Of a stretch of 64,000 nucleotides of DNA, positions 945-58,698 are shown piece after piece. This DNA is from Dryococelus australis. Taxonomy: Eukaryota; Arthropoda; Insecta; Phasmatodea; Phasmatidae. Under the pieces are notes generated by a model. It saw only the letters and a list, made by a program, of their open reading frames with translations, did not search any database and was not told the origin of the DNA. The position numbers and the translations under genes are program-made. Location: positions 221,340,172-221,404,171 of the forward strand of contig CM056997.1 of the NCBI GenBank assembly GCA_029891345.1. The letters run 5' to 3'. How positions within the stretch are numbered: position 1 is the stretch's first letter; the number at the start of each line of letters is the position of its first letter.

Positions 945-1354
945 TATAGTCTGTCCACGGCAATGAAGCACTTCTGAAACCAACCGCTGTGCAATGTCAC
1001 TGCTCCTACCTGCTTGCGCTGTAATGTGCACACTGGCTGGAATGCACTCGGTCAAGTTCGTAGCGATAGAGGGAACAATAGTTACAAGTTCTAAAGTTTA
1101 ATTAAAATTGTTAGATAAACGTTTGTGAACACTGACAATATTTCGTCTTCTTTTTTAATGCATCGACGAGTAGGAATATCAGGTTTATAAAATATTTACA
1201 TTTCTAACAATTCCACATTTTCACCTTACCGACGTATAAATGAAATGTTGAAATCCATGACAATGTTAACTTTACATGCGGTGTAAGAATACAAAAACGA
1301 GTAGAGGTTAAAGAGAGATACATAAAGAACTCAGTTTACCGTGAACAAGCAATA
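945..1354 (+). mobile_element. TIR-A element, unexpanded copy
   Basis: The left end reads TATAGTCTGTCCACGG and the right end is the inverted form, CTCAGTTTACCGTGAACA followed by AGCAATA. The right half (from about 1050) matches the right halves of the elements at 18313-18697, 45901-47714 and 56114-58698: a motif like GTTCGTAGCGATAGAGGGAA, then an AT-rich stretch with TTTGTGAACACTGA, then the terminal repeat. No transposase is encoded, so it is a non-autonomous MITE-like element. Unlike the 46-kb and 56-kb copies it has no internal tandem array; positions 998-1040 hold a single 43-bp segment resembling their units. TA-type ends suggest the Tc1/mariner superfamily, but this is inferred. Confidence 0.65.
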
Positions 1355-6662: not shown

Positions 6663-8822
6663 CAGAGTGGTTTTTCGCTGTGAGGCAATTGTGTTGGCAA
6701 AGTAAATTTCGAGAAATTATAGAAATTTACCACTGAAAAGTATTCAGAAATTTCCATGAAATTACACATTAGTCTTCTTTGCAAAATAAATTTCAGTGAA
6801 TTTTATGGGCACCTTTGTAAATGTGTGGAAGATTCCGTAATTTTGATAAATATATATTTTGTAGACTTGTGAAGTGGAACAAATCAAAAGCTTAATTTTC
6901 AATGCGACATTGCATTACGTATTTTTTATTTTTTTGTTCTGGAGTATGGTTAGAGCAAATAATCGTAACTACTCTTGTCTATAGCATTATTTTAAATAAT
7001 GTGTAGAGCCAAACGACGGGACCTAAATTTTACTCAGTCGTATTGTTGAAGTACAAAATTGCTAGAGCCTATCCAAGTGCTTTCTGCTAACTTTTGATGC
7101 ATAAAGGTATACATGTACGTTGCGAGAAGATGCTACTGCAGCAGAAACGGTAAAACTGAGGATTAAAACTGCAAATATCTCTATGTGCAGCTTCGGTATT
7201 TTTCGTATCCACCTCCTGAAGATAAAGCTTAAATACGAACGAGTTTCATATGTGATACACAAGTCCTCTCTTCTCACTTTGCGCCGACATTACAGTTCGT
7301 ATGTCCCTTATTTGCAAATTTACCACATTAGTGTATACGCACAGTGAAAAAGCGAGTAATGTATAGCTTTTAGCATACATACACGTAAGTGTCCCCACAT
7401 TGGCTCAGGTGAGAGTGGAATGCATAGGGAACTTGCCAACTTTGCACTTTAACATTCCGATGTTTCAGCCAGTTATGTGGTATAATTTCCATACTATGTA
7501 TAGGTTATAAACTTCCATTATCTTTTAGAAAGTTAACTAAACACCATTTTACAAGGTAGGTGCACATTTCCTTAAAATTTTCTACAAATCTATGGCAATA
7601 TTTTTTTTCGCACTCAGCACTCTTGCCTCACGTGTATTCGGAACCCCAGCTAAATTTTTATAGTGGCATTATTTACTGTACCACATTCAAGAGAGAGAGG
7701 GGGGGAGTGGGGATTTTTCAATCCCAAGGCCAACTTTTCAATTCAGAATGGTAACTTAAGAATTACGTTAATTACCAGGATGTGTTAAAACCACAGTATA
7801 TTTGTACTAAAAATATTTTTATGTAGTTCTGATTAAACTCAAACACATTTAAAAAAATTCATACAGACATTTTTATCTGAAGATACTTTGAGGGAAACCG
7901 AACTGCATGACTGTAGTTCTGTTTGTTTCAGCAGTACAATAGACATGCCTGTCTCCCCTATTGTGTTTAGGATGTACCAAATACAAAAGAATGCTTTCTG
8001 TGCTTGGTCGGGTAGGAGAGACCTTACTGTGACATTTCATAATTTTTTTTCCTTCTGCGGAAGCCAGGGACCACAGAAAGTTTCTTCAGGAAGTGAGCCG
8101 AAGCTAGCTGCTCCCAAGATTTAAATTAACCTTTGTAACCAAAGCACCAAATCCCAGACTTCCACCTTCCGCATTAGTATGCGTAGACAGGCGGGGCGCC
8201 CTCTCAGTTATGAATTTCTTCTAGATTCATCTACAGATAAACTGGATATAGGCCAAGCTGATTGTGAGGAAGGTTCAGGCTTAATCCATTCAAGCCAGAG
8301 TCGAGTCCTTCAACAAAGAAATATCGTTTACTCCATCTCTTTCTGCTACAAAAAACCAGATTTGTGTGGATGCGGGTAGATATTATGTGAAAGGAAATAA
8401 AAAGATTCAAGGACAGGTTTAAAACTATTTCGAGAATATATAATCATCCTTTTAGAAAATTATCAGTTCTACATATAACCAATTTTTTTTAGCCTAAAAA
8501 TTAAGTTGTAATGGAACACTATGGAAACATTTCAAATGTATTACAACTACACTACCTATGCAAAATTAGATACAAGAGAGGTTAATAAAACGGTTTTTAT
8601 AAAAACTGTCTTACTTGGTTGTATTTTAAAGCCTCACTTCTTGTTGCAAGATTTGAGAACTATATGTATATAGCAAATTTATTCCGAGTGGTCTGTTCAG
8701 ACAAAAACGGCTTCCCACAGTCAGAAACAAAGGAAAAGCGATCGCTGTGAACACAGGAATACACACAAAGCCTTTAACTTGCACGCATGATATATCAACG
8801 ATAGGCTGGTATCTCGGTACAC
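6663..8822. other. Unassigned intergenic stretch
   Basis: About 2.2 kb of AT-rich sequence. Short ORFs (7062-7277 minus, 7120-7347 plus, 7888-8124 plus, 8179-8379 plus) lack recognisable motifs. A short G/A-rich run lies at about 7689-7707. I cannot assign any element here. Confidence 0.5.
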
Positions 8823-8984
8823 ATAGTCTGTTCACTTTAAGTGAGCACTTTTGAGGTCATAGTTACTTTTTACTTTCGGCCATTTTGTATCCTTGAGTCC
8901 ACCTTTGAAAATAACTTTTGCCGTGTAAGTAACAAACACAGTGTGTGTATTCCACAGCACTCGGAAGTTACCGTCTAAGGCTAC

Positions 8985-9057
<73 letters not shown>

Positions 9058-9111
9058 TATTCCACCTGACAGATCTTCAAAAAGTGCTCAATTTACCATG
9101 AATAGCCTATA
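8823..9111 (+). mobile_element. TIR-A element, short subtype, with internal (AT)n
   Basis: The left end reads CATAGTCTGTTCACTTTAAG followed by TGAGCAC. The right end reads AAAGTGCTCAATTTACCATG followed by AATAGCCTATAG. The interior resembles the elements at 28848-29088 and 58388-58646, including a CACAGTGTGTGTATTCCAC segment. A 66-bp AT dinucleotide run (8988-9053) has expanded inside it. The right end directly abuts the 78-bp tandem array. Confidence 0.65.
8988..9053. repeat. (AT)n microsatellite
   Basis: An uninterrupted alternating A/T run of about 66 bp lies inside the TIR-A element. Confidence 0.97.
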
Positions 9112-9823
9112 GCATAAAATAATTCATCATATCAAGTCAGTTTGCGTACATAAGCTAAAATTCTTGGCTACGGAAGCGACACTAAAGCACAATGAAATAA
9201 TTCATCATATCAAGACAGTTTGCGTACATAAGCTAAAATGCTTGGCTACGGAAGCGACACTAAAGCACAATGAAAGAATTCATCATATCAAGACAGTTTG
9301 CGTAAATAAGCTAAAGTTCTTGGCTACGGAAGCGACACTAAAGCACAATGAAATAATTCATCATATCAAGACAGTTTGCGTAAATAAGCTAAAGTTCTTG
9401 GCTACGGAAGCGACACTAAAGCACAATGAAATAATTAATCATATCAAGACAGTTTGCGTACATAAGCTAAAATTCTTGGCTACGGAAGCGACACTAAAGC
9501 ACAATGAAATAATTCATCATATCAAGACAGTTTGCGTACATAAGCTAATATGCTTGGCTACGGAAGCGACACTAAAGCACAATGAAAGAATTCATCATAT
9601 CAAGACAGTTTGCGTAAATAAGCTAAAGTTCTTGGCTACGGAAGCGACACTAAAGCACAATGAAATAATTCATCATATCAAGACAGTTTGCGTAAATAAG
9701 CTAAAGTTCTTGGCTACGGAAGCGACACTAAAGCACAATGAAATAATTAATCATATCAAGACAGTTTGCGTAAATAAGCTAAAGTTCTTGGCTACGGAAG
9801 CGACACTAAAGCACAATGAAATC
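9112..9823. repeat. Minisatellite, 78-bp unit, 9 copies
   Basis: AATTCATCATATCAAGACAG and close variants recur every 78 bp starting at 9121. Because 78 is divisible by three and one frame lacks stops, a 239-codon open frame (9164-9883) results, translating as 26-residue repeats. I regard it as a by-product: there is no flanking coding context, and the units vary in patterns that trace duplication rather than protein constraint. Variant bases (CGTACA/CGTAAA, GAAAG/GAAAT, TTCATC/TTAATC) recur with a four-unit period. Confidence 0.93.
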
Positions 9824-18312: not shown

Positions 18313-18697
18313 ATATGCTGTTCGGGATTATTGAGAACGTCAGAAATCAACCTTCGAGAAGTGGTACTGCCCCTGGGCACACTGAGTCTCATGCACCCAG
18401 TGTTGGTAAAAACGGAAAGAGACAAGTTCCTGGTCTTCACGTCGAATTCAAAGTCTTACATAAACATTTGTGAACACTTCATTGCCTCTTGATGCACATA
18501 AGTGTAAGAATTAGCATAACTTGTAAAATATTTACTTTCCTAATAACTTTATTGTTTCACTTGACGGAACCGTAAATATAAAGCAATAAGGCGTATGACA
18601 ATGTTATGTTTACACATTGCAGAAGAATTTGCAACGTTCATACAAGAAGATCTTAAGCATGTGTTTCAAAGTGCTCAGTTTGCCGTGAACAGCCTAT
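18313..18697 (+). mobile_element. TIR-A element, unexpanded copy
   Basis: The left end is ATATGCTGTTCGGGATTATT and the right end AGTGCTCAGTTTGCCGTGAA followed by CAGCCTAT. The right half shares TAAACATTTGTGAACACTTC, the AATTAGCATAACTTGTAAAA block and the terminal repeat with 945-1354 and 45901-47714. The centre (18365-18430) holds a short, diverged version of the site where other copies carry tandem arrays. Confidence 0.65.
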
Positions 18698-20847
18698 GAA
18701 GGAAGCGGTGGCGATTCTCGTGTAAAGACCGTTACGTCCAGCCTGCTGGACGACGCAAACATACAGTCCCTCTCTCTTCCCCCCCCCCACCCCCCCCCCC
18801 TCATTTTTGGGGTGTCATTGAGCTTGCGATCTCCGATCAGTTGTCTGCCTATACGCCAGAGCAAAGCCTCGTCAAGCAGCAGGAGAGACCGGACCCGTTA
18901 TACGCGGCAACGCTGCGTGTGGCTCGTCAATATGTGCACTATCATCGGATTTAAAGAACGGCTCACATTCTCCAAGCCACAAGCCGCTTGCCGTTCGATT
19001 TTCTTTTTGTACCTGCCCGCTTCTCCCCTTCTCCCCCCACCAACTAGCCTCCATGAAGAACGGAAGGAGAGCGCGCATTTTGTGCGCCGGCCCGCCCGGA
19101 GGATGACCTCAAAATACGCGGGACTTTCGAAAAAGAATGTGGGTTCGGGCGGGGAGCCTGTCCCCGTTCAAGGTTACCGTGGTGCCCGAGAGAGACCGTT
19201 CTTGCCCTCCCTGATGGAGGGGAGGGAGAGGGTGGTCTTCTTCTAAGAAAGGATCGTCCCCTCTGAGCTAAGGACATGGTTTGTTGTTTTTTTACGTCAC
19301 TATGGCTCGTTCGCGTTTATACACCTATTCTAAAAGAATCTGCTTAGTCCGTTCAGTTCCGAATTAATTTCCGAGCTCAAATGTTCCAATGATTGAATTT
19401 AATGATGTGTGCTGTACTTATGTTGAGAGAGCTACTAACAACTAATTAACGACGTGCTACGTGTTAGTCGTTATCAGCATTAACCATTCACAAATGAGAG
19501 ATGCAGAAACTTAACAAATCCGATGACTCGGAACCAAAAAGGTTCAAAACACGGTGTTGACAATAAATACCCCTGTGCAACTTATATTTGATGGTGGAAC
19601 ATGCGGGCTAAACGAGTTAGTACGTTCGGTCACGTATTCATTTGTGAGCCGAAGTGTTAGAATCGTGTAATATTTCGATGTGCGCTGTACTTGTGTAGTG
19701 TACTTCTCGCAACCAGCCAACAATGTGGCTGCGTGCTCGAAGACATCACCACCAGTCACTCATTGGAACAGAGTGTCTCAGTGGCCACCAGACCAAGACC
19801 ACTATCACGTATACAAAACTTGCCCCCAACTTCACAACCATGTCATTCATGATGCACAAAAATTGGAGGCAAATAAGGAAATAAAATCAGTACATATTTC
19901 GTTTAGTTGGGTAACAGCAAAAAGTGGAAAAATAAAACTAGTTTCCAATTAGAATTTTAATTTCCGAGCACCTCACATCTTTTTATTTTTTTTATTTCCT
20001 CCTCCCCAAAAGATACAAAATAGTAAATAAAACATGGTACAAAAATTATGACTTTGTAAAAAGTGTACATGTATAAATTTACATTTCCCCAAATACCTTT
20101 AAACATTATAATTATTAATATCAAATTTTAAGGTGTTACATAAAAATGTAGCATTTAAATAATACAAATATACGAGGTACTTAACTGGCCGTCACCGAGT
20201 TTGTCAGGAAATTAATAGTACATATTCCGCAACCGTCGTCCTCCCCAAAGCTGTGGAACACGTTCTTGAAACGGACGTATAGTGGCGTCCAATCAAATTC
20301 AAAGGCGACGTTGACGTCACAAGACGACCCCCACAGTCATACCAGCCACCGCTAGGTGGAAGGAAAAGTTGCTAACCGAACGAAACTCCGGCCGTCGCTG
20401 AAGTTACCAGGCACCAGCGTCATGGAGTCGAACTCTTCCTCGGGCTACCGTCAACTGGCAAATGTCTTCAGCAACGCAAGAGCCCATGAGCCGAGTCAAA
20501 TTGACGTGAGCTGGAGTAACTCCGTTACGTCATAAGCCATAGTTGTGGTAACGTTCACAAATAAGAATACCCGTAGGGAAGACTCTCAGAGTATTGGATA
20601 TTGATGCCTCGCTGCGTACAGCACTGGCAGTAAATATTCTTCGTGTGCAAAGTGGCCACAATTGTGGACACGGTGACATAACGGGTTAGTTTAACACATT
20701 GCGGTCTGGGAATATTCACAGATATTCGAGAAAAGCTAGAAGTCGACCACAACAGGAAGTCTAATCCTCTTGGTTTCTTTATTGCCACTCAACATAGTCT
20801 TATTAGTACAAACCATATCAGAAAATACACCGTGAGTAGATAGGCAT
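18698..20847. other. Unassigned stretch, GC-rich in part, with homopolymer runs
   Basis: A C-rich run lies at 18779-18801. The region 18800-19260 is GC-rich with overlapping frames on both strands (18812-19246 plus, 144 codons; 18872-19277 minus); the translations are compositionally odd and match nothing I know. The sequence 19960-20200 is very AT-rich. A CpG-containing patch (20215-20530) contains GTCCAATCAAA and TTGACGTCAC motifs and a small candidate exon at 20422-20505. No mobile element signature was seen. Confidence 0.4.
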
Positions 20848-28847: not shown

Positions 28848-29088
28848 TATAGACTGTTCACGGTAAAGTGAGCACTTTTTAAGGCCCTGAGAAATTTTTC
28901 CTTTCATCTAGTTTCCATCTTCCTGCGGTTTATAATATAAACATTGCAATGTGACTAATAAATACAGTGTATACACTTTACCGCCCTCAGAATTTAATGC
29001 CTGAAGATGCAATAAGATATATTTATTAGTGGTTAATGCCTGTTGGAAGGGCCTTAAAGAGTGCTCACTTTACCGTAAACAGCCTATA
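28848..29088 (+). mobile_element. TIR-A element, short subtype, intact 241-bp MITE
   Basis: The left end is TATAGACTGTTCACGGTAAA followed by GTGAGCACTTTTTAAGGCCC; the right end is GGGCCTTAAAGAGTGCTCAC followed by TTTACCGTAAACAGCCTATA. The inverted repeats are about 40 bp and nearly perfect, the best-preserved in the window. The interior has ACATTGCAATGTGACTAATA and ATACAGTGTATACACTTTAC, seen reversed in the copy at 58388-58646. TA bases at both ends are compatible with a TA target duplication. No ORF is present. Confidence 0.85.
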
Positions 29089-37195: not shown

Positions 37196-37785
37196 AAAAT
37201 AGCCTACTGATGGGAGAAATAAATGGTCTAGATACAAAGTTTCCTGTTAAAATAGCCTACTGGTGGGAGAAATAAATGGTCTAGATACAAAGTTTTCTGT
37301 TAAAATAGCCTGCTGGTGGGAGAAATAAATGGTCTAGATACAAAGTTTCCTGTTAAAATAGCCTACTGGTGGGAGAAATAAATGGTCTAGATACAAAGTT
37401 TCCTGTTAAAATAGCCTACTGGTGGGAGAAATAAATGGTCTAGATACAAAGTTTCCTGTTAAAATAGCCTACTGGTGGGAGAAATAAATGGTCTAGATAC
37501 AAAGTTTCCTGTTAAAATAGCCTACTGGTGGGAGAAATAAATGGTCTAGATACAAAGTTTCCTGTTAAAATAGCCTACTGGTGGGAGAAATAAATGGTCT
37601 AGATACAAAGTTTCCTGTTAAAATAGCCTACTGGTGGGAGAAATAAATGGTCTAGATACAAAGTTTCCTGTTAAAATAGCCTACTGGTGGGAGAAATAAA
37701 TGGTCTAGATACAAAGTTTCCTGTTAAAATAGCCTACTGGTGGGAGAAATAAATGGCCTAGATACAAAGTTTTCTGTTAAAATAG
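37196..37785. repeat. Minisatellite, 53-bp unit, 11 copies
   Basis: AAAATAGCCTACTGGTGGGA recurs every 53 bp from 37196 to 37726, followed by a partial twelfth copy. Variation is limited to single bases (CTGATGGG/CTGGTGGG, CCTGCTG/CCTACTG, GGTCTAG/GGCCTAG). High uniformity implies recent expansion. Confidence 0.96.
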
Positions 37786-45900: not shown

Positions 45901-47714
45901 TATAGGCTGTTCACGGTAATCGGGGCACTTTACAAATTAACCTCTAAAAAATGCAATTCCTTCTAACTGTAACATTCCCCAGGTCTGCGACAATTCTCCT
46001 AACTGCGACATTCCTCCTGCCTGCGACATTCCTCCTGCCTGTGACATTCCTCCTACCTGCGACATTCCTCCTACCTGCGACATTCCTCCTACCTGCGACA
46101 TTCCTCCTACCTGCGACATTCCTCCTACTTGCAACATCCCTACTACCTGTGACATTCCTCCTGCCTGCGACATTCCTCCTACCTGCGACATTGTTCCTAC
46201 CTGCGAAATTCCTCCTACCTGCGACATTCCTCCTACTTGCAACATCCCTACTACCTGTGACATTCCTCCTGCATCGACATTCCTCCTACCTGCGACATTC
46301 CTCCTACCTGCGACATTCCTCCTACCTGCGACATTCCTCCTACCTGCGACATTCCTCCTACCTGCGACATTCCCCTACCTGCGACATTCCTCCTAATTGC
46401 GACATTCCTCCTACCTGCGACATTCCTCCTACCTACGACATTCTTCCTACCTGCGATAGTCCTCCTACCTGCGACATTCCTCCTACCTGCGACATTCCTC
46501 CTACTTGCGACATTCCTCCTACTTGCAACATCCCTACTACCTGCGACATTCCTCCTGCCTGCGACATTCCTCCTACTTGCAACATCCCTACTACCTGCGA
46601 CATTCCTCCTACTTGCAACATCCCTACTACCTGCGACATTCCTCCTACCTACGACATTCCTCCTACCTGCGACATTCCTCCTACTTGCGACATTCCTCCT
46701 ACTTGCATCATCCCTACTACCTGCGACATTCCTCCTACCTGCGACATTCCTCCTACCTGCGACATTCCTCCTACCTGCGACATTCCTCCTACTTGCAACA
46801 TCCCTACTACCTGCGACATTCCTCCTACTTGCAACATCCCTACTACCTGCGACATTCCTCCTACCTGCGACATTCCTCCTACCTGCGACATTCCTCCTAC
46901 TTGCGACATTCCTCCTACTTGCATCATCCCTACTACCTGCGACATTCCTCATACCTGCGACATTCCTCCTACCTGCGACATTCCTCCTACCTGCGACATT
47001 CCTCCTACCTGCGACATTCCTCCTACTTGCAACATCCCTACTACCTGCGAAATTCCTCCTACCTGCGACATTCCTCCTACCTGCGACATTCCTCCTACCT
47101 GCGACATTCCTCCTACCTGCGACATTCCTCCTACCTGCGACATTCCTCCTACTTGCGACATTCCTCCTACTTGCAACATCCCTACTACCTGCGACATTCC
47201 TCCTACTTGCAACATCCCTACTACCTGCGACATTCCTCCCACCTGCGACATTCCTCCTACTTGCAACATCCCTACTACCTGCGACATTCCTCCTACCTGC
47301 GACATTCCTCCTACCTGCGACATTCCTCCTACCTGCGACATTCCTCCTACCTGCGACATTCCTCATGTCCGCGAATATTTTAACGAGCAAATTGGCGGGC
47401 ATGTGCCCAGTAAAGTCGGTAACGATATAAGGAAATAATTTCCCTGCCATTTAAATGAATGTGTTAGTAAACATTTGTGAATACTGAAAATATTTCTTTC
47501 GCTTTCTGTTTATTTAATGTAAAGGTGACTAAGAATTAGCATATTTATAAAATTTTTACCTGTCCAATAATTCCACGGTTTTTACTTGACCGACGCAAGT
47601 AGTATAAAGTGAACATGCTCGTGACAGTGATGATGTTAAATGTGGTGGAAAAATACACAGTGTGCGTACAAGTAGATCTTCAGAAAGTGCTCAGTTTACC
47701 GTGAACAGCTTATA
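45901..47714 (+). mobile_element. TIR-A element containing an 18-bp array
   Basis: The left end is TATAGGCTGTTCACGGTAAT and the right end AGTGCTCAGTTTACCGTGAA followed by CAGCTTATA. The right unique flank (47370-47714) has CAGTAAAGTCGGTAACGATA, AACATTTGTGAATACTGAAA and AAGAATTAGCATATTTATAA, aligning with 945-1354, 18313-18697 and 56114-58698. Inside, 1.4 kb of 18-bp repeats occupy the position where the copy at 945-1354 has one 43-bp segment. Without the array the element would be about 410 bp, the usual size for this family. Confidence 0.75.
45966..47366. repeat. Minisatellite, 18-bp unit, about 78 copies
   Basis: The base unit is ACATTCCTCCTACCTGCG, with frequent variants ACATTCCTCCTACTTGCA and ACATCCCTACTACCTGCG that usually occur as a 36-bp pair. 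Because 18 is a multiple of three, long open frames appear on both strands (495 codons at 45951-47438, 399 codons at 46251-47450 minus, others). Their products are six-residue repeats such as CDIPPT or NVAGRR. All frames are open at once and the boundaries fall inside a transposon, so I do not call a gene. Confidence 0.96.
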
Positions 47715-48168
47715 AAAATGATTATATTGTTATGTAAATCATTGTAGAGCTTGGCTTAATATATATAGATGAAAATCGCCCTATAGTGAACAGAAATCCG
47801 CTCCACACCTCAGATAGTTTCTCGGCAAAATGGCTGCTTGTTATTGGTTTTATAAGTTCGAACTTTTCCATATTGCAAAGCCAAAGGCTTGGTTATCACT
47901 GACAGTAAAAAGCAAACGTGAAGTCAAAATCTGACTGAGGCGTGCCGCCATGATTCTCGGTCCACTCTGATGTAATGTTTAGACTAACCGCCTCACACCT
48001 AGGGGAACCGGGTTCGATTGCTGGCGGGGTCTCTCACGGATTTTCGCATGTGGGAATCGTGCCGGACGATGCCGCTGGACGGCGGGTTTTCTCGGAGAAC
48101 TCCCGTTTCCCCCGCGCTTGCATTCCGGTGCTCCTCCATACTCACCTCGCTTCATTTTCATCGGCTCT

Positions 48169-49215
48169 CACTTTAAATCTGAATCAGTGAGAATTTCACT
48201 GTTTCAATCAGTCAAACGTATCTGACTTGTAAAACAGTCAGGTCAGTGGATTTAACTGATGAACCTGTGAAAAAATGCCATATTTCCTTCACTGATTGAT
48301 TCAGTGACATTTCCCACTGATTCGTTAGTCATTTTTTCCACTGTTTTCTCTGTGGTTTATATTTTGACTGATGGATCAGTGAAACATCTGAGAAACTTGC
48401 TCCATGTCTATTTTTGACTGATGTATCAGTGAAACTGCGTGTAAAAATGGCTATCAAACATAGTTTAAAAATGGCCGTTAAACAACGTGTATCAAGTGAA
48501 GTAACAACGAATAAACAAATAAAACTAATACAAGATATTTTCTCTAAAATATGTTTCGTCTTTCAAAACACCATTTTACGAGGTAATATAAACACATAGG
48601 CTTTCATTCCGGTTGTACGTATTTCATTTCGATTCCATGGGATTGTCACAGCGCTCTGTTTGAAGGTTTAAATTGCATATAATGTGGCGAAGAGAGTGCA
48701 CTCATATATACTATTCGTTTTAAGAATACTAACTGTAACAATCAAACCAAACACGAAAAGTATGAGCATGCAACTTCAAACTACACGATTTCGCAGCGAA
48801 ATTATGACATATATTTGCCTCCTATAATTTCAAACTTTGTATGTTAACTCAGGTGGCAAGGTAACTGCATAGAGTCGAAGGGTGCGCGAGTTCATCCCGG
48901 CCATATGCGGAACGTTTTTTACTTGTTTAAATTACGGTAAATCGCACAATATAAATAGTAGACTTTCGTTAATATGTGTATTTCACGTAATTATTTACCT
49001 ACATTCAATAAAAGCAATATTTAATTCGCCACTGTAGTCGGCCGTTACTTATTTAATCAGCGAAATTGTTTCACGTCACTATTTCAATCAGTGGAATTTT
49101 TTCTCCGAAACAATCAGTGGTATTCCACTGAATCTAAGCGGAGTCATTTCCATTGATTAGAGTTGTTGAATTTCACTGCGAATCAGTGGTTTTCCACTGA
49201 TTCGAATTTATAATG
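48169..49215 (+). mobile_element. TIR-E element inserted in a SINE, 1,047 bp
   Basis: The left end CACTTTAAATCTGAATCAGT and right end ACTGATTCGAATTTATAATG are imperfect inverted repeats related to the element at 29942-31034. CT flanks both sides (48167-48168 and 49216-49217), consistent with a 2-bp target duplication. Both subterminal regions are filled with ATCAGTG/CACTGAT motifs in both orientations. A tRNA-like motif pair lies at 48854-48900. No transposase is visible; the 61-codon frame at 48414-48599 is AT-rich and unrecognised. Confidence 0.72.
48854..48900 (+). other. tRNA-like A/B-box motifs inside TIR-E
   Basis: TGGCAAGGTAACTGC resembles an A-box, and GAGTTCATCCCGG (48888-48900) resembles a B-box, at short spacing. 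It sits about two thirds of the way along the element, as does the motif pair at 30697-30773 in the sister element. Pol III activity is not demonstrated. Confidence 0.35.
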
Positions 49216-49309
49216 CTGAAGAGCTCGATGTTAAGAGCCACTTACGTAATGCTGGTGGCACGTGCCAGGCAGAATACGTGGCAGGCAGTGTTATTAAGTA
49301 GGCTACACT

Positions 49310-49620
49310 ACGTGGCAGTCTCAGAGGGGCTGCAGGCACGCGCTGTTATCGGTCGGCGCTCCTGTTTCCCGTCACATTGTTGACTGACCACTGTGAACTC
49401 CTGAACCCTTCCCACGCCACGCCACGCCGCACCGTCACTCCTCTGGGCCGCTGAACCACTTGACTGCCAACTACAGCCGCACACGCCAACAAAATGCCGG
49501 CACTGGTCAATGCTGGAACGCCGTTCGCCAATCAGCGCCCAGTATCCTACTCGCCTGCCGGTAGCCCAGCCAATAGGGAACATTCTGCAGAACGCTGTAC
49601 GCTATAATGCTTAGGCGTAT
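49310..49620 (-). mobile_element. TIR-C element
   Basis: In reverse orientation: CTACAGCCGCACACGCCAAC, AAAATGCCGGCACTGGTCAA, GGAACGCCGTTCGCCAATCA and GTAGCCCAGCCAATAGGGAA match the family. The left portion contains a local CACGCCACGCCACGCCGC repeat. Ends are eroded. The overlapping minus-strand ORFs are incidental. Confidence 0.55.
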
Positions 49621-49742
49621 TTGTTCAGCTGCATTTAAAAGAAACAGTTTAATTTATTAAATACTTACTATTTTTGTTGACAATAAATTTATATTCACAA
49701 CTGCCTACCTGCATGGCGTACTTCGTGAAGTTCTTACGATTT

Positions 49743-50086
49743 TCATATGTATTGTCGCCATTAATGTTGACTTGACATAACATTTTCATATGTATTGTCG
49801 CCATTAAGGTTGACTTAACATAACATTTTCATATGTATTGTCGCCATTAAGGTTGACTTGACATAACATTTTCATATGTATTGTCGCCATTAAGGTTGAC
49901 TTAACATAACATTTTCATATGTATTGTCGCCATTAAGGTTGACTTAACATAACATTTTCATATGTATTGTCGCCATTAAGGTTGACTTAACATAACATTT
50001 TCATATGTATTGTCGCCATTAAGGTTGACTTAACATAACATTTTCATATGTATTGTCGCCATTAAGGTTGACTTAACATAACATTT
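49743..50086. repeat. Minisatellite, 43-bp unit, 8 copies
   Basis: TCATATGTATTGTCGCCATT followed by AAGGTTGACTTAACATAACA recurs every 43 bp; differences are TTGACTTGACAT/TTGACTTAACAT and TAATGTT/TAAGGTT in the first units. Unrelated in sequence to the 43-bp unit at 56-58 kb. Confidence 0.95.
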
Positions 50087-50300
50087 TCTGCCCTTGAAAA
50101 CTGATTGAATCGCTTCAACTATACCTACATTTGATTGACAACAGAGACCCAGGTTAGTTTTGTGTATATTGTACCACAAGTATTTGTAGATTACCTACGA
50201 ACACTGCGCGATTTTGCTTTATAAAATCGTGTTTTAAATACGAGCATTTTTCAAAGAAATTTTCATCGTTCAAATATCGTTGATTAGAAGTTTGTTTCCC

Positions 50301-50382
50301 TCACTCATCTTGAGTCCTGGTCACTTATCTTAAGTCCTGGTCACTCGTCTTGAGTCCTGATCACTCATCTTGTGTCCTGGTC
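50301..50382. repeat. Short minisatellite, 20-bp unit, 4 copies
   Basis: TCACTCATCTTGAGTCCTGG and variants (CTTATCTTAAG, CTCGTCTTGAG, CTCATCTTGTG) follow each other in 20-bp steps. Confidence 0.9.
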
Positions 50383-51394
50383 AGGAATGTCAATATTCAA
50401 CGGCAACGATCAGAGAGGGAAACAATTCGTGCTTGGATATTTCTGAACATGTTCACACTTGGCAAACGAGTTTAGTGACAAGTCCTAGCTGCCAATACAA
50501 AAATCACAGGTGTTAGTGATTGGAACCACCTAATTCTGTACGTCTAGGACAAGCTTTAAAAATCGTGTTCCACACAAAAATAAAATAAAAAACAATCGCT
50601 TCAAATATGCCCGCAACTTATTGTACCATAGGTATACTACGCTTGGGATTCTCTGGAAAAATACACTAGTTACGTCCAAATAGCTAATTACTATGGCAAC
50701 CGAAACTGTAGGTTATAACTATAGGGACACCAGATTGTAGCGAAAAGAGTCGGACATTCCATCAGCTTTAATTTCGTGTTCGTCACATGTCTTTATGAGA
50801 AGACATTTCGTTTGTTGACTAGCCAATCATAAAACGGTTACCCCGGTACTGGACGTCTCTGATTGGCAGACAAGCACATAATACTCCTAACATAGTGTAT
50901 CTGGTGTGTTTTTAAATACAGATACTGATGAAATATTTTGGCGTAAAACAGGCGCCGTAGTACTAACTGACGGTAGTCTGCTGTCGGATAAGCTATTGTT
51001 TAATGGCAGCAGTGTTTATTTCTTCCGCCGCATGGCGCTGCTGTCACATTCACTGGTAATGGCTGGAGGTTGCCGTCATTTCCGCCGCGGGCGGGAAGAA
51101 CAATATTGCTGCAGAATTGTCGGCAGTGGAAGAAAACCAGGCCTGAGATGAAACACACTCGAGACGGACTCGCTTTCAAGTTAACAGCCATGAACGAAGA
51201 TATCGATCGGAACATACAGAATACATCATGACTTTCCAGCATTTTCTAACATAGCCTTCAAACTGCTGATAACATGCTTGGAAAGTTTTATACACACGGG
51301 ATAATGTACTGAGGAATTGACAAGTTTCATATGTTCACCCGAATCCCTTAGTCCTTTCAACCACAGACAGTCATATGATTTTAGATGTTGCAAC

Positions 51395-51422
51395 GAACAC
51401 ACACACACACACATAGAGAGAG

Positions 51423-51498
<76 letters not shown>
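51395..51498. repeat. (CA)n followed by (GA)n microsatellite
   Basis: A CA run to about 51412 leads into a long GA run that ends where a SINE tail fragment begins. The GA repeat accounts for the ORFs seen on both strands here. Confidence 0.97.
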
Positions 51499-51501
<3 letters not shown>

Positions 51502-51536
51502 ATTTGGGCGGCTCTTAACAGCTAGGTCTTGAGAGA
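51499..51536 (-). mobile_element. SINE 3'-tail fragment (copy 9)
   Basis: ATATTTGGGCGGCTCTTAAC followed by AGCTAGGTCTTGAGAGA matches the last 35-40 bp of the SINE family in minus orientation. The GA microsatellite lies exactly at the position of the SINE 3' end, suggesting it grew from the SINE tail. The rest of the SINE is absent. Confidence 0.65.
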
Positions 51537-52064
51537 ACAAAGAACTAATTTTTTGTTTGGAGTTTAGCATATATCAGTACAACGCACTGTTACATGTCGG
51601 AACCAATTAAAAACGTGATTTTATTTCATGTTATTGCGAGCAGTTCGTTATCAGACTGCTGCTATCACTACACTATGACTGCTACTATCATTAATAAAGT
51701 TGTCCGTATGAGGCAAATTGCTACTTTCTTCACGGCTGTTACAAGAAAGAAAATATTCATGGTAACTCATGTGCAATAATTTAAAACGTTCTGGGAAGTT
51801 ATTAGGTCGTCAAAATTCTATAGGCATAAGCCTTACAAAACAATAATTGTGCCAAAAAAATTTGCCATGAGTTGAGAATGGAGAGATTGATCTCGCTGAA
51901 CACATTGACACATAATGTACACGATTGTGAACATTGGCTTCTTGCAGGTTATTTTTGGCCGGTCTTGAATAATACTAAGTTCCATTTCCAAATTATCTTC
52001 CCTGTACAGAAATTGACTCGTAAGACATACTACTGCTTCAGGACATTGAAGATAATCACACTGA

Positions 52065-52245
52065 GGAGACATGGCGCTGCGATTACTTTGATGTGGGCGT
52101 ATCTATTCTCTCACTGGCTGCACGAAGCTCCAGAACGGGCCTTGTGTCTAACTGCAGGCTACTTGCGTGTTGTGAAATTCGTCCATTGGCTGGACTGCCT
52201 GCCGGCTGGCAAGTAAGTTACCACACGATGAATTACGAAGGCGTT
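52065..52245 (+). mobile_element. Partial TIR-C element
   Basis: GAGGAGACATGGCGCTGCGA, TACTTTGATGTGGGCGTATC, CTCACTGGCTGCACGAAGCT, CGGGCCTTGTGTCTAACTGC and TTGGCTGGACTGCCTGCCGG follow the forward consensus. The distal half after GTAAGTTACCA is lost. Confidence 0.6.
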
Positions 52246-53463
52246 ATACAAATTTGTTGTCGTGTGGCTGAGGTACGTTGAATAAGCGGGGTTTATTGCA
52301 ACGCCAGTGTAGGTGTGTGGGTGTGTGCGCGCGGGTGTGTGTGTGTGTGTTTGAGGATATGCTTGAATGAGTTACAACGTGCAGTTTAATTTGTTCCCCA
52401 TAGTGTCTTACTCGTAGACACCAATTTGCGTGGTGTCAAGAGGTTTTCTAAAATCTCGCTTGACCCCAAATGAAAATAAGCCATTTCCTATTTAAAAAAG
52501 CTAGATTTATCTAAATATACTTAAAATCATGTAATCAGAGTTAAATTATTATTTCCTGATTTTATTTATTTACAATAAATTAAAAAAATTCTCTCTACCC
52601 AACATCTCACAATAAAATGATATCCCTTGCTGTTTACAATTAATGAATTGAATAATAAAAATTTACAATTACCTCGAAGAATTTAATGTAATAAAATAAT
52701 TAAAAATCAGTCCCAATAGAGAGTGTATCAAAACCTAATCAATTATTTCATTGATTATATGTCCATATTTAACAGTTCCAATATTTACATAAAAGTCCGT
52801 ATCACATGTCCATTCAGTCCCCCCTGCGGCGAGCGACCTAGCAGTGAACGGATCTGCCTGGGGTCACTCACATAGAGACGGTCAACGCATTGAGCTCGCT
52901 CGCGTCAGAGTGTAACAATACATTCATTCAAAATGTGTATTTATTAAATGTGATTTTCTCTGAGTTATCGGGGTTAATTTCTACATCCTCAGAAGAGAAG
53001 GAAACAACATGTGACTGTTTTATTGTTTAAATAAAACCCACAATCTGTTTTACTCATATTGAAGAAAAAGCTAGATTTCTCGCTAGGCGGTCTAAAAATG
53101 TTATGTCGCTAAACTGAACTTTGTAAAAGCTATACTTGGCGAACAAGGAGCTAAATTGGCAACACTGAGTCCACGCAATGGAAGCGAAGTTGGCGAAGAA
53201 TCGACGAAGGGGGAGATTATCAGCTGACGGCGCCTGGGTTGCAACTCAGTGTCCTGCAGTTGCTGTATGGTTTTTTGTGGTTCGGCGTCGCTGCGTGATG
53301 GACGCAGGATTCCTCTTCTCGACGACTCCTCGGCCACGCCGCAGAGATAAGACATGTACAGAAGCAAGTGTTGCAGTCCGCCTCACTGCCGGCGGCTACA
53401 TTACATACGTACTTACTTCTTTGACAAACTACTGCCGTTGTGGCATCACTTACAGTTAAGAAC
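52246..53463. other. Unassigned intergenic stretch
   Basis: A GT-rich run lies at 52310-52352 and AT-rich sequence at 52480-52780. A GC-balanced patch (53100-53400) contains frames on both strands (53101-53367 minus, 53178-53459 plus) without recognisable domains. TTGGCAACACTG at 53156-53167 is unremarkable. Confidence 0.4.
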
Positions 53464-53754
53464 ACCAACATTTCGTTTCGCCTTTTATACGACCTGTACG
53501 CTAGACTTTACGGTCTCGTGTACTTCCGAGACTCAGCTTTCTGTTCATTGGCCAATGCCACCCCAGTCTGTGGCCAGTATTACCTCAGAGCAGGTGGCAC
53601 GCAGTTCGGAGCTTGTTTTCTTGCAGCTCTGTTATTGGCTCATAGTTCACCTCACGTGTCTAACAAATTATCATCCTATTGTAAACATTACAGAAATACA
53701 CATTTGTTTCAAGTCTAACTTGTCATAAAATGAATTCGCGAAATTTCACTACCT
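53464..53754 (+). mobile_element. TIR-D element, diverged copy
   Basis: GACCTGTACGCTAGACTTTA followed by CGGTCT corresponds to GACCTGTAGGCTAGACTTCA in the 43540 copy. CATTGGCCAATGCC and GTTATTGGCTCATAG match its CCAAT/ATTGG blocks, and the right end ATGAATTCGCGAAATTTCAC resembles its right end. The ORFs over it are incidental. Confidence 0.55.
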
Positions 53755-53758
53755 CAGC

Positions 53759-54197
53759 TACAGTCTATTCGCGGTTTCTTCGCACTTTTTAAATCAAACT
53801 TTTTGAAAAATCACCCAGTGTATGACGTGTTTGCTTGTTTACTAAATACATCAATTATCACGAGTGTTTTATATTCGTGTTAATATAAATTGACATAAAA
53901 GAACCTTAATGTTAATTTAATTAAAATTTATTTATATTTGATTCATAAATTGCACATTTGATCTGTACTTGTGAATGAAAACAGTGAGAAAATAGGTGGG
54001 TTGGTAATGCCTAGAAATATATTGTTGCTATGCAGAATATTATTAGACAGAGTGCGCACGAATGCGGCGCGTTGTCCCTCTGGGGTAATTGTCTAGACTC
54101 AGTTAAGATTTATTAGCATTACGCGAAGGAATACTCTGGAAGTAGAACTTTAGCAAGGTTTCAGAACAGTTGGAAATAACTGTGAATTGTCTAAATA
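53759..54197 (-). mobile_element. TIR-B element, full-length, reverse orientation
   Basis: The left end TACAGTCTATTCGCGGTTTC and right end AATAACTGTGAATTGTCTAA are inverted repeats. Reading in reverse, GGTATTCCTTCGCGTAAT and AAATCTTAACTGAGTCTAGA correspond to the GGATATTCCTC and AAGCTTAGTTAACTGTAGA blocks of the 4993 copy. It is about 440 bp and non-coding. Confidence 0.7.
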
Positions 54198-54244
54198 TTC
54201 TACAACGGTTCGCGGACTCAACACCCAATCGCAGAGTATGCAAG

Positions 54245-54415
54245 GGTACAGAGGTGAACCAGCCACTTATTCCGCCAATTGCAGCCGTACACGCCAGCTA
54301 AGCCGGCAACCCGGCGAATTTGAACTTGCAGGCGCGGTAGGTCGCAGCCAATCTGGCTCAAGACCCTTTCCAGAGTCTCACGCAACAAATCAGAGTTTGG
54401 TTACGCACACATCAG
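54245..54415 (-). mobile_element. Partial TIR-C element
   Basis: GGTACAGAGGTGAACCAGCC, CCGCCAATTGCAGCCGTACA and CGCCAGCTAAGCCGGCAA, then GCAGCCAATCTGGCT and CGCAACAAATCAGAG, follow the reverse-orientation consensus with internal loss. The right terminal repeat is unclear. Confidence 0.5.
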
Positions 54416-54666
54416 AGAAACCCCCTCGCAATTTGTACACAGAGTAAAACAAGCGGGGAGGAACTGGCTGGTGTCGCAGTGTGGGACATGTTGAATGGAG
54501 TACTTAGTCGACACGACCTCACCTTCACGTATTACCTTTAACGGACCTCCCTGGTGTTTGTATGTGCCTGTGGCTACCCAGCCGAGCACTCACGACGCCT
54601 ACCTTGTTGTAACACGGCGATCAGAAGAGCGAAACGTTACCAGGGCGACTGCCTCATAGTAGTTCA

Positions 54667-54840
54667 GTACGCAGAGAACAAATCGCGTGCCAGCTCTTTC
54701 GATGTGGGCGTTACCATTTTCTCATATGCGAGCGTGGTGTCTGATTGGCTATTGCGTGCTGCGAAGCACTACTTATTGGTTGACTTGTCGACTGGCAAGT
54801 AGATTACCGAGTACTTGTTGGCGAACGGCGCAGCGTTCCG
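54667..54840 (+). mobile_element. Partial TIR-C element
   Basis: GTACGCAGAGAACAAATCGC, TTTCGATGTGGGCGTTACCA, GTCTGATTGGCTATTGCGTG, TTATTGGTTGACTTGTCGAC and TTGTTGGCGAACGGCG fit the forward TIR-C order. It ends before the right repeat. Confidence 0.55.
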
Positions 54841-55776
54841 GCCGTAGACTAAAGATGAGGTAGACCGATTATTCGACTTCTGGGCATGTACCCAAAATTG
54901 ACCTATCCTACGCCAACACAATCGTCAAAGTCGCATGGTGAACAGTGATGAACATGTTTTTTTATATATAGTTTTCTAAAGACAAGCGCTTTAACATAAA
55001 TAAAAATAAATAAAATACTTTTACCAATTTGTATTTTATCAAACTGTATTACAAATTGGTAAGAGGAAGTATATAAGCATCTCAAATAACTTGTTTACTA
55101 AACAGTATTCTAATCTCTAATCCTATACACATCGTCCATGACAGTCGTATTGGTAGGTGAGTAGTTAAAACGTCGGGGCAGGGAGAATGGGTATGCTCAG
55201 CTAGCGTGATCACTCTAGGATCCCAATATGATGCTGGCCAGTAACGGAATGTTAGTGTCGCGCGCAGGAGCTGGGGGAGAAATTAACAGTTTCGCGTCTG
55301 TATTGTTGAGTAGCGTGTGTTGCCAGCGACAGTGTCGTAGCCTCTTGGGCGGCCGCATGACATATGTTCCGCTCGCCGCCTTAATTGGCTACTCGAGCCC
55401 GCAAACGGCCAATAAAACAAGTTATACTGCTTGTCGGAGCTCACGGCCACCTCCGGCACTAAACCGCACAGCGAGAGAGGCGTAAAAAAAAGCGCTGCTC
55501 GAGCACATCGTCTTGATCATGCGTAAATTACGAACAGCTACGCGTCGGGTCGTATTTTATTATCAGCGCCGCGCTGATGCCAGCCGCGAGTGCACGGGAT
55601 GTGAAGCGAGTCCTCGCCGTTTCAGTCTACCGGCGCTTCCGTTTTCAACGATTTGATAAGGAACGAATATGATTCGTGCACACACAGTAGTCAGAATGTT
55701 TTCCCAGTAATGTGTCAAGTTACACCTTAAAAAAAAAAAAAAAAAAGTTCCATATTCTGCGATGTCTAGAGCCATC
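54841..55776. other. Unassigned stretch, CpG-containing in part
   Basis: The part at 55160-55500 is CpG-rich with TTAATTGGCTACTCG and CGGCCAATAAAAC motifs and could be an eroded CCAAT-rich element or a promoter; nothing decides between them. An A-run lies at 55729-55746. Confidence 0.4.
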
Positions 55777-56037
55777 TGGGACTGCGGTTGCTGAGCAGTG
55801 AGCAACTCGCCTCCCACGAAGGGAACCAGGTTCAATCTCCGGCCGAGTCACTCCCAAATTTTCGCAAGTGGGAATCGAGCCGGGCGGTGCCTCTGGTCGG
55901 CAGGTTTTCTCGGGGATCTCCCGTTTTCCCCGTCCCTTCATTCTGGCCGTGCTCCATACTCACTTCGATTCACCCTCATCGCCTCTCAAGACCTGGCTGT
56001 TAAGAGCCACCCAAATCTGTTCAGCCACTCACTCTAC
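55777..56037 (+). mobile_element. tRNA-derived SINE (copy 10)
   Basis: The head TGGGACTGCGGTTGCTGAGC (A-box) is followed by CCAGGTTCAATCTCCGGCC (B-box), the body GGGAATCGAGCCGGGCGGTG and CTCGGGGATCTCCCGTTTTC, and the tail CTCAAGACCTGGCTGTTAAG followed by AGCCACCCAAATC. Full length. Several ORFs across it are incidental. Confidence 0.87.
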
Positions 56038-56172
56038 AGCCACCTGTTTTTTTTTTTGCGAACACATTAATGTGCAAGCTAGATTTCTCTACTTCAAGTG
56101 TGCACTTGTAACATGAAAGCCGTTCACGGTTAATCGAGCAGTTTTGACTATCAACTTTTGAAAAAAAAATGC

Positions 56173-58114
56173 CACTATCCATACCTGCGTGTATTGTAAA
56201 GGGCACAGTGACTGTCACTGTCCCTCCCTGTGTGTATTGTAAGGGGCAGAGTGACTGCCACTGTCCCCCCCTGAGTGTATTGTAACGGGCAAAGTGTCTG
56301 TCACTGTATCTCCCTGCATGTATTGTAATGGGCACAGTGTCTGTCACTGTCCCTCCCTACGTGTACTGTAACGGGCACAGTGTCTGTCACTGTATCTCCC
56401 TACTTGTATTGTAATGGGCACAGTGTCTGTCACTGTCCCTCCCTACTTGTATTGTAACGGGCACAGTGTCTGTCACTGTATCTCCCTACTTGTATTGTAA
56501 CGGGCACAGTGTCTGTCACTGTCCCTCCCTGCATGTATTGTAACGGGCACAGTGTGTAGTCACTGTATCTCCCTACTTGTATTGTAACGGGCACAGTGTC
56601 TGTCACTGTCCCTCCCTGCATGTATTGTAACTGGCACAGTGTCCGTCACTGTATCTCCCTGCATGTATTGTAAGGGGCACAGTGTATGTCACTGTCCCTC
56701 CCTACTTGTATTGTAATGGGCACAGTGTCTGTCACTGTCCCTCCCTGCTAGTATTGTAACTGGCACAGTGTCTGTCACTGTATCTCCCTACTTGTATTGT
56801 AACGGGCACAGAGTCTGTCACTGTATCTCCCTGCATGTATTGTAACGGGCACAGTGTCCGTCACTGTATCTCCCTACTTGTATTGTAACGGGCACAGTGT
56901 CTGCCACTGTCCCTCCCTGCATGTATTGTAACGGGCACAGTGTGTAGTCACTGTATCTCCCTGCATGTATTGTAAGGGGCACAGTGTATGTCACTGTCCC
57001 TCCCTACTTGTATTGTAACGGGCACAGTGTCTGTCACTGTATCTCCCTACTTGTATTGTAACGGGCACAGTGTCTGTCACTGTCCCTCCCTGCATGTATT
57101 GTAAAGGGCACAGTGTGTAGTCACTGTATCTCCCTGCATGTATTGTAACGGGCACAGTGTGTAGTCACTGTATCTCCCTGCATGTATTGTAACGGGCACA
57201 GTGTCTGTCACTGTCCCTCCCTGCGTGTATTGTAACTGGCACAGTGTGTAGTCACTGTATCTCCCTGCATGTATTGTAACGGGCACCGTGTCCGTCACTG
57301 TATCTCCCTACTTGTATTGTAACGGGCACAGTGTCTGTCACTGTCCCTCCCTGCATGTATTGTAACGGGCACAGTGTCTGTCACTGTCCCTCCCTGCGTG
57401 TATTGTAACTGGCACAGTGTGTAGTCACTGTATCTCCCTGCATGTATTGTAACGGGCACCGTGTCCGTCACTGTATCTCCCTACTTGTATTGTAACGGGC
57501 ACAGTGTCTGTCACTGTCCCTCCCTGCATGTATTGTAACGGGCACAGTGTCTGTCACTGTATCTCCCTGCATGTATTGTAAGGGGCACGGTGTATGTCAC
57601 TGTCCCTCCCTGCGTGTATTGTAACGGGCACAGTGTCTGTCACTGTATCTCCCTATTTGTATTGTAACGGGCACAGTGTATGTCACTGTCCCTCCCTGCA
57701 TGTATTGTAACGGGCACAGTGTCTGTCACTGTATCTCCCTACTTGTATTGTAACGGGCACAGTGTCTGTCACTGTCCCTCCCTGCATGTATTGTAACGGG
57801 CACAGTGTGTAGTCACTGTATCTCCCTGCATGTATTGTAAGGGGCACAGTGTATGTCACTGTCCCTCCCTGCATGTATTGTAACGGGCACAGTGTCTGTC
57901 ACTGTATCTCCCTACTTGTATTGTAACGGGCACAGTGTCTGTCACTGTCCCTCCCTGCATGTATTGTAACGGGCACAGTGTCTGTCACTGTATCTCCCTG
58001 CATGTATTGTAAGGGGCACAGTGTATGTCACTGTCCCTCCCTACTTGTATTGTAATGGGCACAGTGTCTGTCACTGTCCCTCCCTGCGTGTATTGTAACG
58101 GGCACATTGTCTGT
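56173..58114. repeat. Minisatellite, 43-bp unit, about 45 copies
   Basis: Two unit types alternate in places: CACTGTCCCTCCCTGCATGT and CACTGTATCTCCCTACTTGT, each followed by ATTGTAACGGGCACAGTGTC and TGT. Some copies carry GTGTGTAGT instead of GTGTCTGT, giving 44 bp. It lies inside the TIR-A element. Short minus-strand frames over it are repeat by-products. Confidence 0.95.
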
Positions 58115-58387
58115 AACGCGCCCTGTAAAGTTAGTAACGACGGAGGGAAAGTAGTTACGTGACTCAATGTTCAATTAAAAGTGTTGGTTTAATATTTGTG
58201 AGTATTGAAACTATTTATTTTGCTTTCCATTTTTACGTATGTATATGTAACTACTTGCAACTTTGTACAAAAATTACTTTCCTAGAAATTCAAATGCCAC
58301 TGTCCTACGCATTAATAAAATGATCAGGCCCATGAAAATGTTAATTTTACATGTGATGAAAGAATATACAATGTATTCAAATACAAT

Positions 58388-58646
58388 TATAGGCTGTTCA
58401 CGGTTTAGTGAGGAATTTTTAAGGCCCTCCCTTAAGGCAGTAAGCCCTAATAATTATATTTGATTGCAGTCTCAGACATTAACCTTTGAGAGTGATGAAA
58501 TGTATGCACTGTGTTTATTAGTCATATTGCAATGTTTACATTAAAAAGTGCCGGAAAATTAGAAATTAATTGAAATGAAAACAATTTGTAGGGCCTTAAA
58601 AAGTTAGCACTTTTTAAAGTGCTAACTTTACCATGAATAGCCTATA
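58388..58646 (-). mobile_element. TIR-A element, short subtype, nested
   Basis: The left end TATAGGCTGTTCACGGTTTA and right end AACTTTACCATGAATAGCCT followed by ATA are inverted repeats. The interior is the reverse of the 28848-29088 copy (CAGACATTAACCTTTGAGAG, GTTTATTAGTCATATTGCAA). Near the right end the terminal sequence forms an extra hairpin, AGTTAGCACTTT against AAAGTGCTAACT. Confidence 0.8.
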
Positions 58647-58698
58647 TGGATCCTCAACAGGACTTTCTAAATTGCTCAGTTTAATGTCAAGATCCTAT

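Follow-up and report, generated by a model that had tools for sequence, protein, structure and literature searches.

Sequence evidence for the repeated origin of different minisatellites within one family of terminal-inverted-repeat elements in Dryococelus australis

The window analysed in this study is a 64-kb stretch of the Dryococelus australis genome (C5:221,340,172-221,404,171 in a 3.4-Gb assembly), located 6.7 Mb from the end of a 228.1-Mb contig. A profile built from non-window copies detected, with nhmmer, four full copies in the window of one element with terminal inverted repeats (TIRs), two of which carry long minisatellites with units of 18 and 43 bp, respectively. Comparison of sequences across the genome indicates that different minisatellites arose repeatedly from this one family, as the original prediction, made from the window alone, had proposed: 16 expanded copies with element sequence on at least one side (2 in the window and 14 genome-wide) comprise 12 unit lengths of 18-44 bp. 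It appears likely that the ~424-bp element has a zone, at about consensus positions 35-150, which is prone to short tandem duplication by slippage or microhomology after insertion, followed by growth of the duplicate.

Expanded and unexpanded copies in the window

The copies of the element and the features within them were as follows.

45901..47714, + strand: expanded TIR copy with the 18-bp array; nhmmer 45903-45971 = model 2-70, 47357-47713 = model 54-423 (E 6e-68)
45985..47364, + strand: 18-bp minisatellite, 76.8 copies according to Tandem Repeats Finder (TRF), unit GACATTCCTCCTACCTGC, homologous to consensus 52-69
56114..58698, + strand: expanded TIR copy with the 43-bp array; nhmmer 56117-56217 = model 3-98, 58069-58376 = model 51-364 (E 5e-59), 58649-58698 = model 374-423
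56173..58114, + strand: 43-bp minisatellite, 45.0 TRF copies, unit aligned to consensus 52-94
58388..58646, no strand assigned: short nested TIR element that interrupts the 56-kb copy towards its right end, between model 364 and 374; TIR matches 58388-58431 (-), 58390-58422 (+) and 58606-58645 (+)
946..1354, + strand: unexpanded copy; nhmmer 948-1347 = model 3-417 (E 8e-84)
998..1040, + strand: single-copy 43-bp segment of this copy, homologous to the 43-bp unit, its first part also to the 18-bp unit
18313..18698, + strand: second unexpanded copy with a short core deletion, seen in the core sequence; nhmmer 18315-18697 = model 3-423 (E 4e-66)

The 46-kb and 56-kb elements had been predicted to belong to one family with homologous flanks, and non-homology of the flanks had been named beforehand as refuting. 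It was not found: both copies matched the profile, and their flanks aligned better than shuffled sequences on both sides. In scored local alignments, the right flanks were identical in 187 of 279 columns, with a score of 169 versus a maximum of 77 in 300 shuffles, and the left flanks in 50 of 73, with a score of 43 versus a shuffle maximum of 35. A blastn comparison of the right flanks of these two copies gave no match, and local alignment with shuffles was used instead. When only the short left flanks of the 56-kb and 1-kb copies were aligned, their score of 24 equalled the shuffle maximum of 24; their link rests on the profile match.

The predicted array sizes of about 78 and 45 copies agreed with the TRF values, as degenerate units extend the 18-bp array leftward to ~45950 and bring it to ~78 units, with ends chosen by eye. 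Units within ~10-100 bp and many copies qualify both arrays as minisatellites, with sizes that rest on the assembly. The 18-bp unit matched the family consensus at 15 of 18 bases (positions 52-69) and the 43-bp unit at 34 of 43 (positions 52-94), and none of 200 letter-shuffled units was as good in either case. Therefore, both window units are pieces of one single-copy element sequence. Many single 43-bp units also matched the profile from about position 51. Counts made by hand on the segment 998-1040 were exact: it is 43 bp long, matches the 43-bp unit at 31 of 43 bases, and agrees with the 18-bp unit at 14 of its first 16 bases. Both arrays start at about consensus 48-54, within or just after an A-run preceding GTCACTG (the start of the 18-bp array was set by eye).

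These alignments bear on the idea that the element captured pre-existing satellite DNA at the core site. Units of different copies do look unrelated at first sight, and capture has been proposed for miDNA4 and for Helentrons carrying tandem repeats, according to the sections of the literature cited below. However, the units in the window can be aligned to single-copy sequence of the element itself, and the tandems at four other loci in the genome (L072, L073, L085 and L086) are exact duplications of local element sequence, which makes capture highly improbable.

The second unexpanded copy (18313-18698) was absent from the original prediction. Its deletion, which sits between CCCCT and GGGCAC, indicates that the zone loses sequence too.

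The 18-bp array yields an open frame of 495 aa at 45951-47438 (+ strand) and another of 399 aa at 46251-47450 (- strand), both long because 18 is a multiple of 3. The 495-aa frame is probably meaningless, and it could get annotated as a repetitive protein.

The element family and its class

The family consensus obtained from the profile is 424 bp long, with some extracted loci outside the alignment. A 25-base anchor, allowing at most 2 mismatches, was found at 37,541 + 37,311 = 74,852 places, compared to 0 for the reversed control. Searches with the window copies, using the best 40 candidates each, provided 62 non-window loci, which were extracted with 1.5-kb flanks. Two of them, L008 and L059, are one copy; the 62 loci thus represent 61 distinct places, and this copy is counted twice in the word frequencies, in the 68- and 74-copy sets and in the 206-kb sample mentioned below.

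The prediction that the host is a TIR element was borne out by the profile. In the window and extracted copies, model 2-37 matched 387-423 on the reverse strand and conversely, giving TIRs of ~37 bp. T preceded the first model base in 59 of 68 full-length copies and TA was present at the end in 59 of 68, the two ends being tallied separately; this is consistent with a TA target site. Judged by its TIRs, short length (424 bp), very high abundance and apparent TA target site, the family is similar to miniature inverted-repeat transposable elements (MITEs). The unexpanded window copies have no open reading frame of at least 140 aa, a nearly trivial result at such length; smaller frames were not sought. 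A TA target site, which the copies appear to have, is a criterion for Tc1/mariner, and by itself it proves no superfamily.

Two other classes were rejected. Helentron/HINE elements have no target-site duplication (TSD) and carry subterminal inverted repeats with a 3' palindrome, whereas this family is bordered by TA on either side and has an outward TIR at each end. Foldback elements of the Tetris kind have tandems inside long TIRs at both ends, whereas the tandems of the 14 mapped flanked copies are one-sided and start at consensus 35-105.

Short elements other than the family copies were also noted in the window. Those at 28848-29088 and 58388-58646 have TIRs in common with the profile and a body that matches little or not at all; by these ends, they can be regarded as part of a wider group of TIR elements. 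The element at 8822-9111 has the same kind of TIRs and contains a (TA)33 tract (8988-9053); an array of nine 78-bp units (9117-9822) begins 6 bases past its right end.

Expanded copies across the genome

Unit lengths in the 16 flanked copies were 18, 19, 21, 22, 24, 30 (three copies), 34, 39, 41, 42, 43 (two) and 44 bp (two), and the arrays spanned from 2 to 77 units (about 2, 3, 6, 8, 12, 32, 45 and 77). The genome holds copies with one, two, three and many units of differing length, as had been anticipated. The 14 non-window copies and the largest array seen are given below.

L069, core zone: 44 bp x 6.2
L070, core zone: 24 bp x 20, array reaching the end of the stretch read; left flank only
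L072, core zone: 19 bp x 2.2
L073, core zone: 30 bp x 2
L082, core zone: 21 bp x 12.2
L084, core zone: 22 bp x 32.5
L085, core zone: 42 bp x 2
L086, core zone: 30 bp x 3.1
L089, core zone: 30 bp x 8.1
L074, second zone: 39 bp x 12.1
L075/L076, second zone: 41-bp units, only ends read; ~46 copies if continuous
L079, second zone: 34 bp x 3.2
L080, second zone: 44 bp x 3.2
L081, second zone: 43 bp x 3
C2:371720035-371727828 (ends L077 and L078), outside the flanked count: 43-bp units matching element positions 107-148 over at least 7.8 kb, ~180 units if continuous; largest seen

Of 11 core-zone copies, 10 had a tandem that started between consensus 48 and 55 and one had a tandem that started at 35; the first units ended at 65-78 or 95-96. 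Second-zone units covered approximately 78-117, 91-124 and 104-148. The units of both window arrays align from consensus 52. The suggestion of one and the same internal site is not supported as worded, since the arrays fall in a zone of ~100 bp (~35-150). Arrays at different internal positions, which had been named as evidence against the idea, were in part observed in the second zone. The single-site hypothesis was rejected in this form, since the adjacent word GTAAAGTTGGTAAC, which had been intended to serve as a negative control, recurred in tandem at more loci than the core word. This points to a hot zone wider than the core first proposed.

A further 17 loci carry element-like tandem units of up to 73 bp, with flanks not read. 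These are 11 loci of a scan for periods of 46-76 bp, three loci of the GTAAAGTTGGTAAC scan (C1:41.3, C1:95.1 and C2:262.2 Mb), two of the CACTGCYCMTRC scan (C3:287.5 and C15:82.8 Mb) and the array at C2:371.72 Mb.

One explanation for the series is that a few master copies with two or more units spread by transposition and that the present arrays are their descendants. Cg_HINE and Tetris families carry an array from copy to copy (cited sections of PMC7492417 and PMC4079207), and L080, L081 and the C2:371.7-Mb array share a period of 43 or 44 bp at positions that overlap. Against this stand the 12 unit lengths among 16 flanked copies and the absence of a core array from all 61 sampled copies. 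Moreover, the window units differ from the consensus (15/18 and 34/43) about as much as their own flanks do (0.82 and 0.75). Descent from master copies is accordingly very unlikely, and expansion probably took place in situ after insertion.

Word scans and controls

Genome-wide scans recorded exact words recurring within a short distance; they favour near-consensus copies and measure no rate. Among the 62 loci, the core words occurred 22 and 25 times, GTAAAGTTGGTAAC 36 times, the right-half words TGACCGACGCATGA and AGATCTTAAGCAGG 24 and 30 times, and TGAGCACTTTTGAA 70 times.

The core word CTGCYCMTRCCTGC at periods of 15-45 bp gave 12 matches at 7 loci, two of which were CTGC microsatellites by eye. 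The five remaining loci were read, and four lay in the element. The core word CACTGCYCMTRC at periods of 14-44 bp gave 44 matches at 14 loci, compared to 1 forward and 1 reverse match for the control; eight of the 10 loci read lay in the element. At periods of 46-76 bp, CTGCYCMTRCCTGC gave 46 matches at 14 loci; 11 of these had not come up in the other scans and resemble the element, as judged by unit sequence only (units 48-73 bp).

The word GTAAAGTTGGTAAC, just right of the core, gave 213 matches, and the 100 listed fall at 9 loci on C1 and C2. Six of these loci were read, five having an element flank; at C2:371.72 Mb the units match the element, and the array ends were not reached. With the right-half words, tandems were seen at 2 and 3 loci and never exceeded two copies. 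The left-TIR word had 23 matches at 21 loci, two of which had three copies while several read like nested insertions; it yielded far fewer loci with at least three copies than the core word. Left out of the flanked count were L083, L087/L088, L071, the CTGC microsatellites, and C7:17.98 Mb and C8:30.88 Mb, the last two known by word scan only.

No core tandem array was detected by TRF (score 50) in any of the 61 sampled places, indicating that expansion is rare. Two of four window copies were expanded (Fisher's test versus the sample, p = 0.003), though the window was put forward for that reason. A query with an 86-base dimer gave 41 matches, each of about one unit or less, among the best 40 of 473 candidates. 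Five loci cut near the core (L005, L040, L043, L054 and L066) were inspected for hidden expansion and interpreted as breaks or nested insertions; among the loci searched for arrays, L040, L054 and L066 have breaks close to the core. The repeat in L046, with a 368-bp period, is a near-duplicate of the element itself and not a core array.

The scans and the sample bear directly on whether the element is special at all. Its sheer abundance in a minisatellite-rich genome or region might yield arrays at any position, and several observations agree with this: a near-exact 25-mer of the family is present at 74,852 places, both right-half words yielded two-copy duplications, the left TIR yielded tandems of two and of three copies, and 0 of 61 sampled copies had a core array. 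The window is itself rich in minisatellites, with 17 in 64 kb compared to 3 in 206 kb of sampled loci (period of at least 10 bp, about 3 copies or more, score of at least 100). However, arrays of at least three copies occurred at the core words and at GTAAAGTTGGTAAC, compared to 2 of 21 left-TIR loci and 0 of 2 and 0 of 3 right-half loci, although the right-half words are similarly frequent in the sample (24 and 30 versus 22-36). Breakpoints also recur at similar places in different copies. Abundance as the whole explanation is therefore possible but doubtful, and a duplication-prone zone within the element remains the preferred reading.

Duplication, growth and age of the arrays

Within zone 35-150, TAACG recurs as a short direct repeat at 78, 117 and 147, and a GC-rich stretch at 82-105 is capable of forming a hairpin. 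Two consensus TAACG words are 39 bp apart, which is also the period of L074. When folding was compared with shuffles, a 54-nt segment with the hairpin was equalled by 3 of 200 (z = -2.9) and a 92-nt segment by 22 of 200 (z = -1.3), whereas an 85-nt right-half segment exhibited no folding excess (178 of 200 shuffles as good). The exact run exceeded whole periods by 3 bp in L072 and 4 bp in L086; at the other loci tested, apart from L073 and L085, the run was broken and uninformative.

We infer the following course of events. After insertion, a decaying copy would undergo one duplication by replication slippage or microhomology-mediated repair, and this first duplication would fix the unit length. 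The duplicate might then grow into a minisatellite by more slippage or unequal exchange, perhaps more easily in minisatellite-rich surroundings such as the window. The 18-bp and 43-bp arrays would represent two independent events of this kind in two old copies. Growth by exchange of unit blocks is suggested by the internal structure of both arrays: the 43-bp array also fits a 388-bp period (9 units) in TRF, and the 18-bp array has self matches displaced by ~340 bp.

Divergence of the copies was taken as support for growth after insertion. Body identity to the consensus was 0.75-0.82 in four copies with at least 6 units and 0.83-0.93 in five with 2-3 units (one-sided p = 0.008), while 7 of the 16 flanked copies gave no identity value. 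The median identity of 74 other unexpanded copies was 0.876.

Several observations weigh against a duplication-prone zone followed by growth. The age trend is fragile, with p = 0.048 if L069 (6.2 copies) is counted as short or if the window copies are excluded, and the window's unexpanded copies (0.78 and 0.77) have diverged as much as the expanded ones (0.82 and 0.75). The hairpin is only moderately special by the z-scores of both its segments, and L073 and L085 have a surplus of 0, i.e., no microhomology. Clustering of left breakpoints at 48-55 fails for some long units of the 48-73-bp scan, which include part of the left TIR, so that the left limit is a feature of short units. Among the loci read, L083 and L087/L088 are arrays without an element match, and L071 is unclear. 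The left-TIR word is about three times commoner in the sample, and its loci per word frequency equal those of the core word. At periods of 15-45 bp, the core word alone gave 5 non-microsatellite loci versus 2 and 3 for the right-half words, which is not decisive without the second zone. Finally, the bias of exact-word scans to near-consensus copies applies throughout, and the GTAAAGTTGGTAAC loci derive from only 100 of 213 matches.

Minisatellite-rich surroundings and contig ends

Other window arrays include 46 bp x 14 at 2726-3366, 125 bp x 6 at 5912-6665 and 53 bp x 11 at 37196-37785, and the element profile had no match within these three. The occurrence of two expanded copies close together may partly reflect a minisatellite-rich region.

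Long element arrays lay within 10 Mb of a contig end in 4 of 8 cases, compared to 0 of 8 short ones, in the first set of loci (p = 0.04). After long-unit loci were added, the values were 4 of 12 versus 1 of 20 with L069 classed as short (Fisher's test, p = 0.053; rank test, p = 0.017) and 4 of 13 versus 1 of 19 with L069 classed as long (p = 0.074; rank, 0.028). With L069 long and the window excluded, they were 3 of 12 versus 1 of 19 (p = 0.15; rank, 0.05). This comparison was post hoc, and 16 of the 32 loci are known from word scans only; the contig-end bias of long element arrays is weak and a lead only.

For minisatellites in general, 3 of 11 probes ~4.5-5 Mb from contig ends contained arrays, compared to 3 of 61 sampled loci and 0 of 3 interior probes (p = 0.04), with unequal lengths of 4 and 1.5 kb for probes and 3.3 kb for sampled loci. 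L018, which is among the three sampled loci with an array, is situated 7.8 Mb from a contig end. Two probes ~4.5-5 Mb from contig ends were wholly tandem: L090 (C1:399000001-399004000; 93 bp x 43) and L098 (C3:5000001-5001500; 30 bp x 50).

A more speculative extension, which we regard as unlikely, is that the 100-bp zone is intrinsically fragile around a GC-rich hairpin that stalls replication, sowing duplications everywhere, of which those near chromosome ends grow long. If this were true, the element would be, by its copy number, the genome's minisatellite nursery and would help to build minisatellite-rich regions such as the window.

Comparison with known systems

The birth of a minisatellite is hard to observe because normally the finished array alone remains. 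In this family, related starting sequences number in the tens of thousands, the ancestral sequence at the breakpoints is known, and the tandems range in steps from exact duplications with two copies up to dozens of units (~180 at one locus if continuous, with ends unread). It makes measurable which sequence features seed duplications and which surroundings favour growth. It also carries a warning that unrelated-looking minisatellites in large genomes may have one common transposon origin.

The original prediction regarded a TIR host as unusual for a tandem core, which does not hold. Satellites and minisatellites born inside transposable elements are described in the sections of PMC12628747 and PMC9659126 cited here, including MITEs with internal arrays (miDNA4, Xstir) and Alu; the comparisons below refer to such sections throughout. 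Many unit lengths from one zone of one MITE family were not found described among the titles and abstract openings listed, a scope that leaves most subscription journals outside. Satellites in MITEs and minisatellites in other transposable elements are thus already known, and the present family is an unusually rich case.

Two close parallels are in Xenopus. miDNA4, a Tc1/mariner MITE of Xenopus tropicalis (Scalvenzi and Pollet 2014, via PMC12628747 and PMC9659126), similarly has an internal satellite present as one monomer or a variable array, with microhomologies invoked for array growth. In contrast, it has one satellite unit, thought to be captured, whereas here many unit lengths derive from overlapping pieces of the element's own zone. 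The Xstir MITE repeats (Hikosaka and Kawahara 2004, via PMC12628747) are also tandems from internal MITE sequence; stem-loops between neighbouring elements were invoked there, and not many independent short duplications.

Different minisatellites within the copies of one transposable-element family are known for human Alu and mouse B1/MaLR (Jurka and Gentles 2006; Bois 1998; Kelly 1994, via PMC9659126). Those are retroelements, whereas here the host is a TIR DNA element whose breakpoints recur within a single 100-bp zone. The Cg_HINE non-autonomous Helentrons of the Pacific oyster (PMC7492417) are similar in that group 2 has related flanks and differing central tandem repeats. They have no TSD, insert at T-rich targets and were analysed for units of 100-500 bp, whereas the present family has TA target sites and a TIR at each end, and its units can be traced to the element itself. 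In the Tetris foldback element of Drosophila virilis (PMC4079207), element-internal repeats likewise seed satellite arrays; its repeats lie inside long TIRs, whereas those of the flanked copies described here are located at or beyond the inner edge of a ~37-bp TIR, on one side only.

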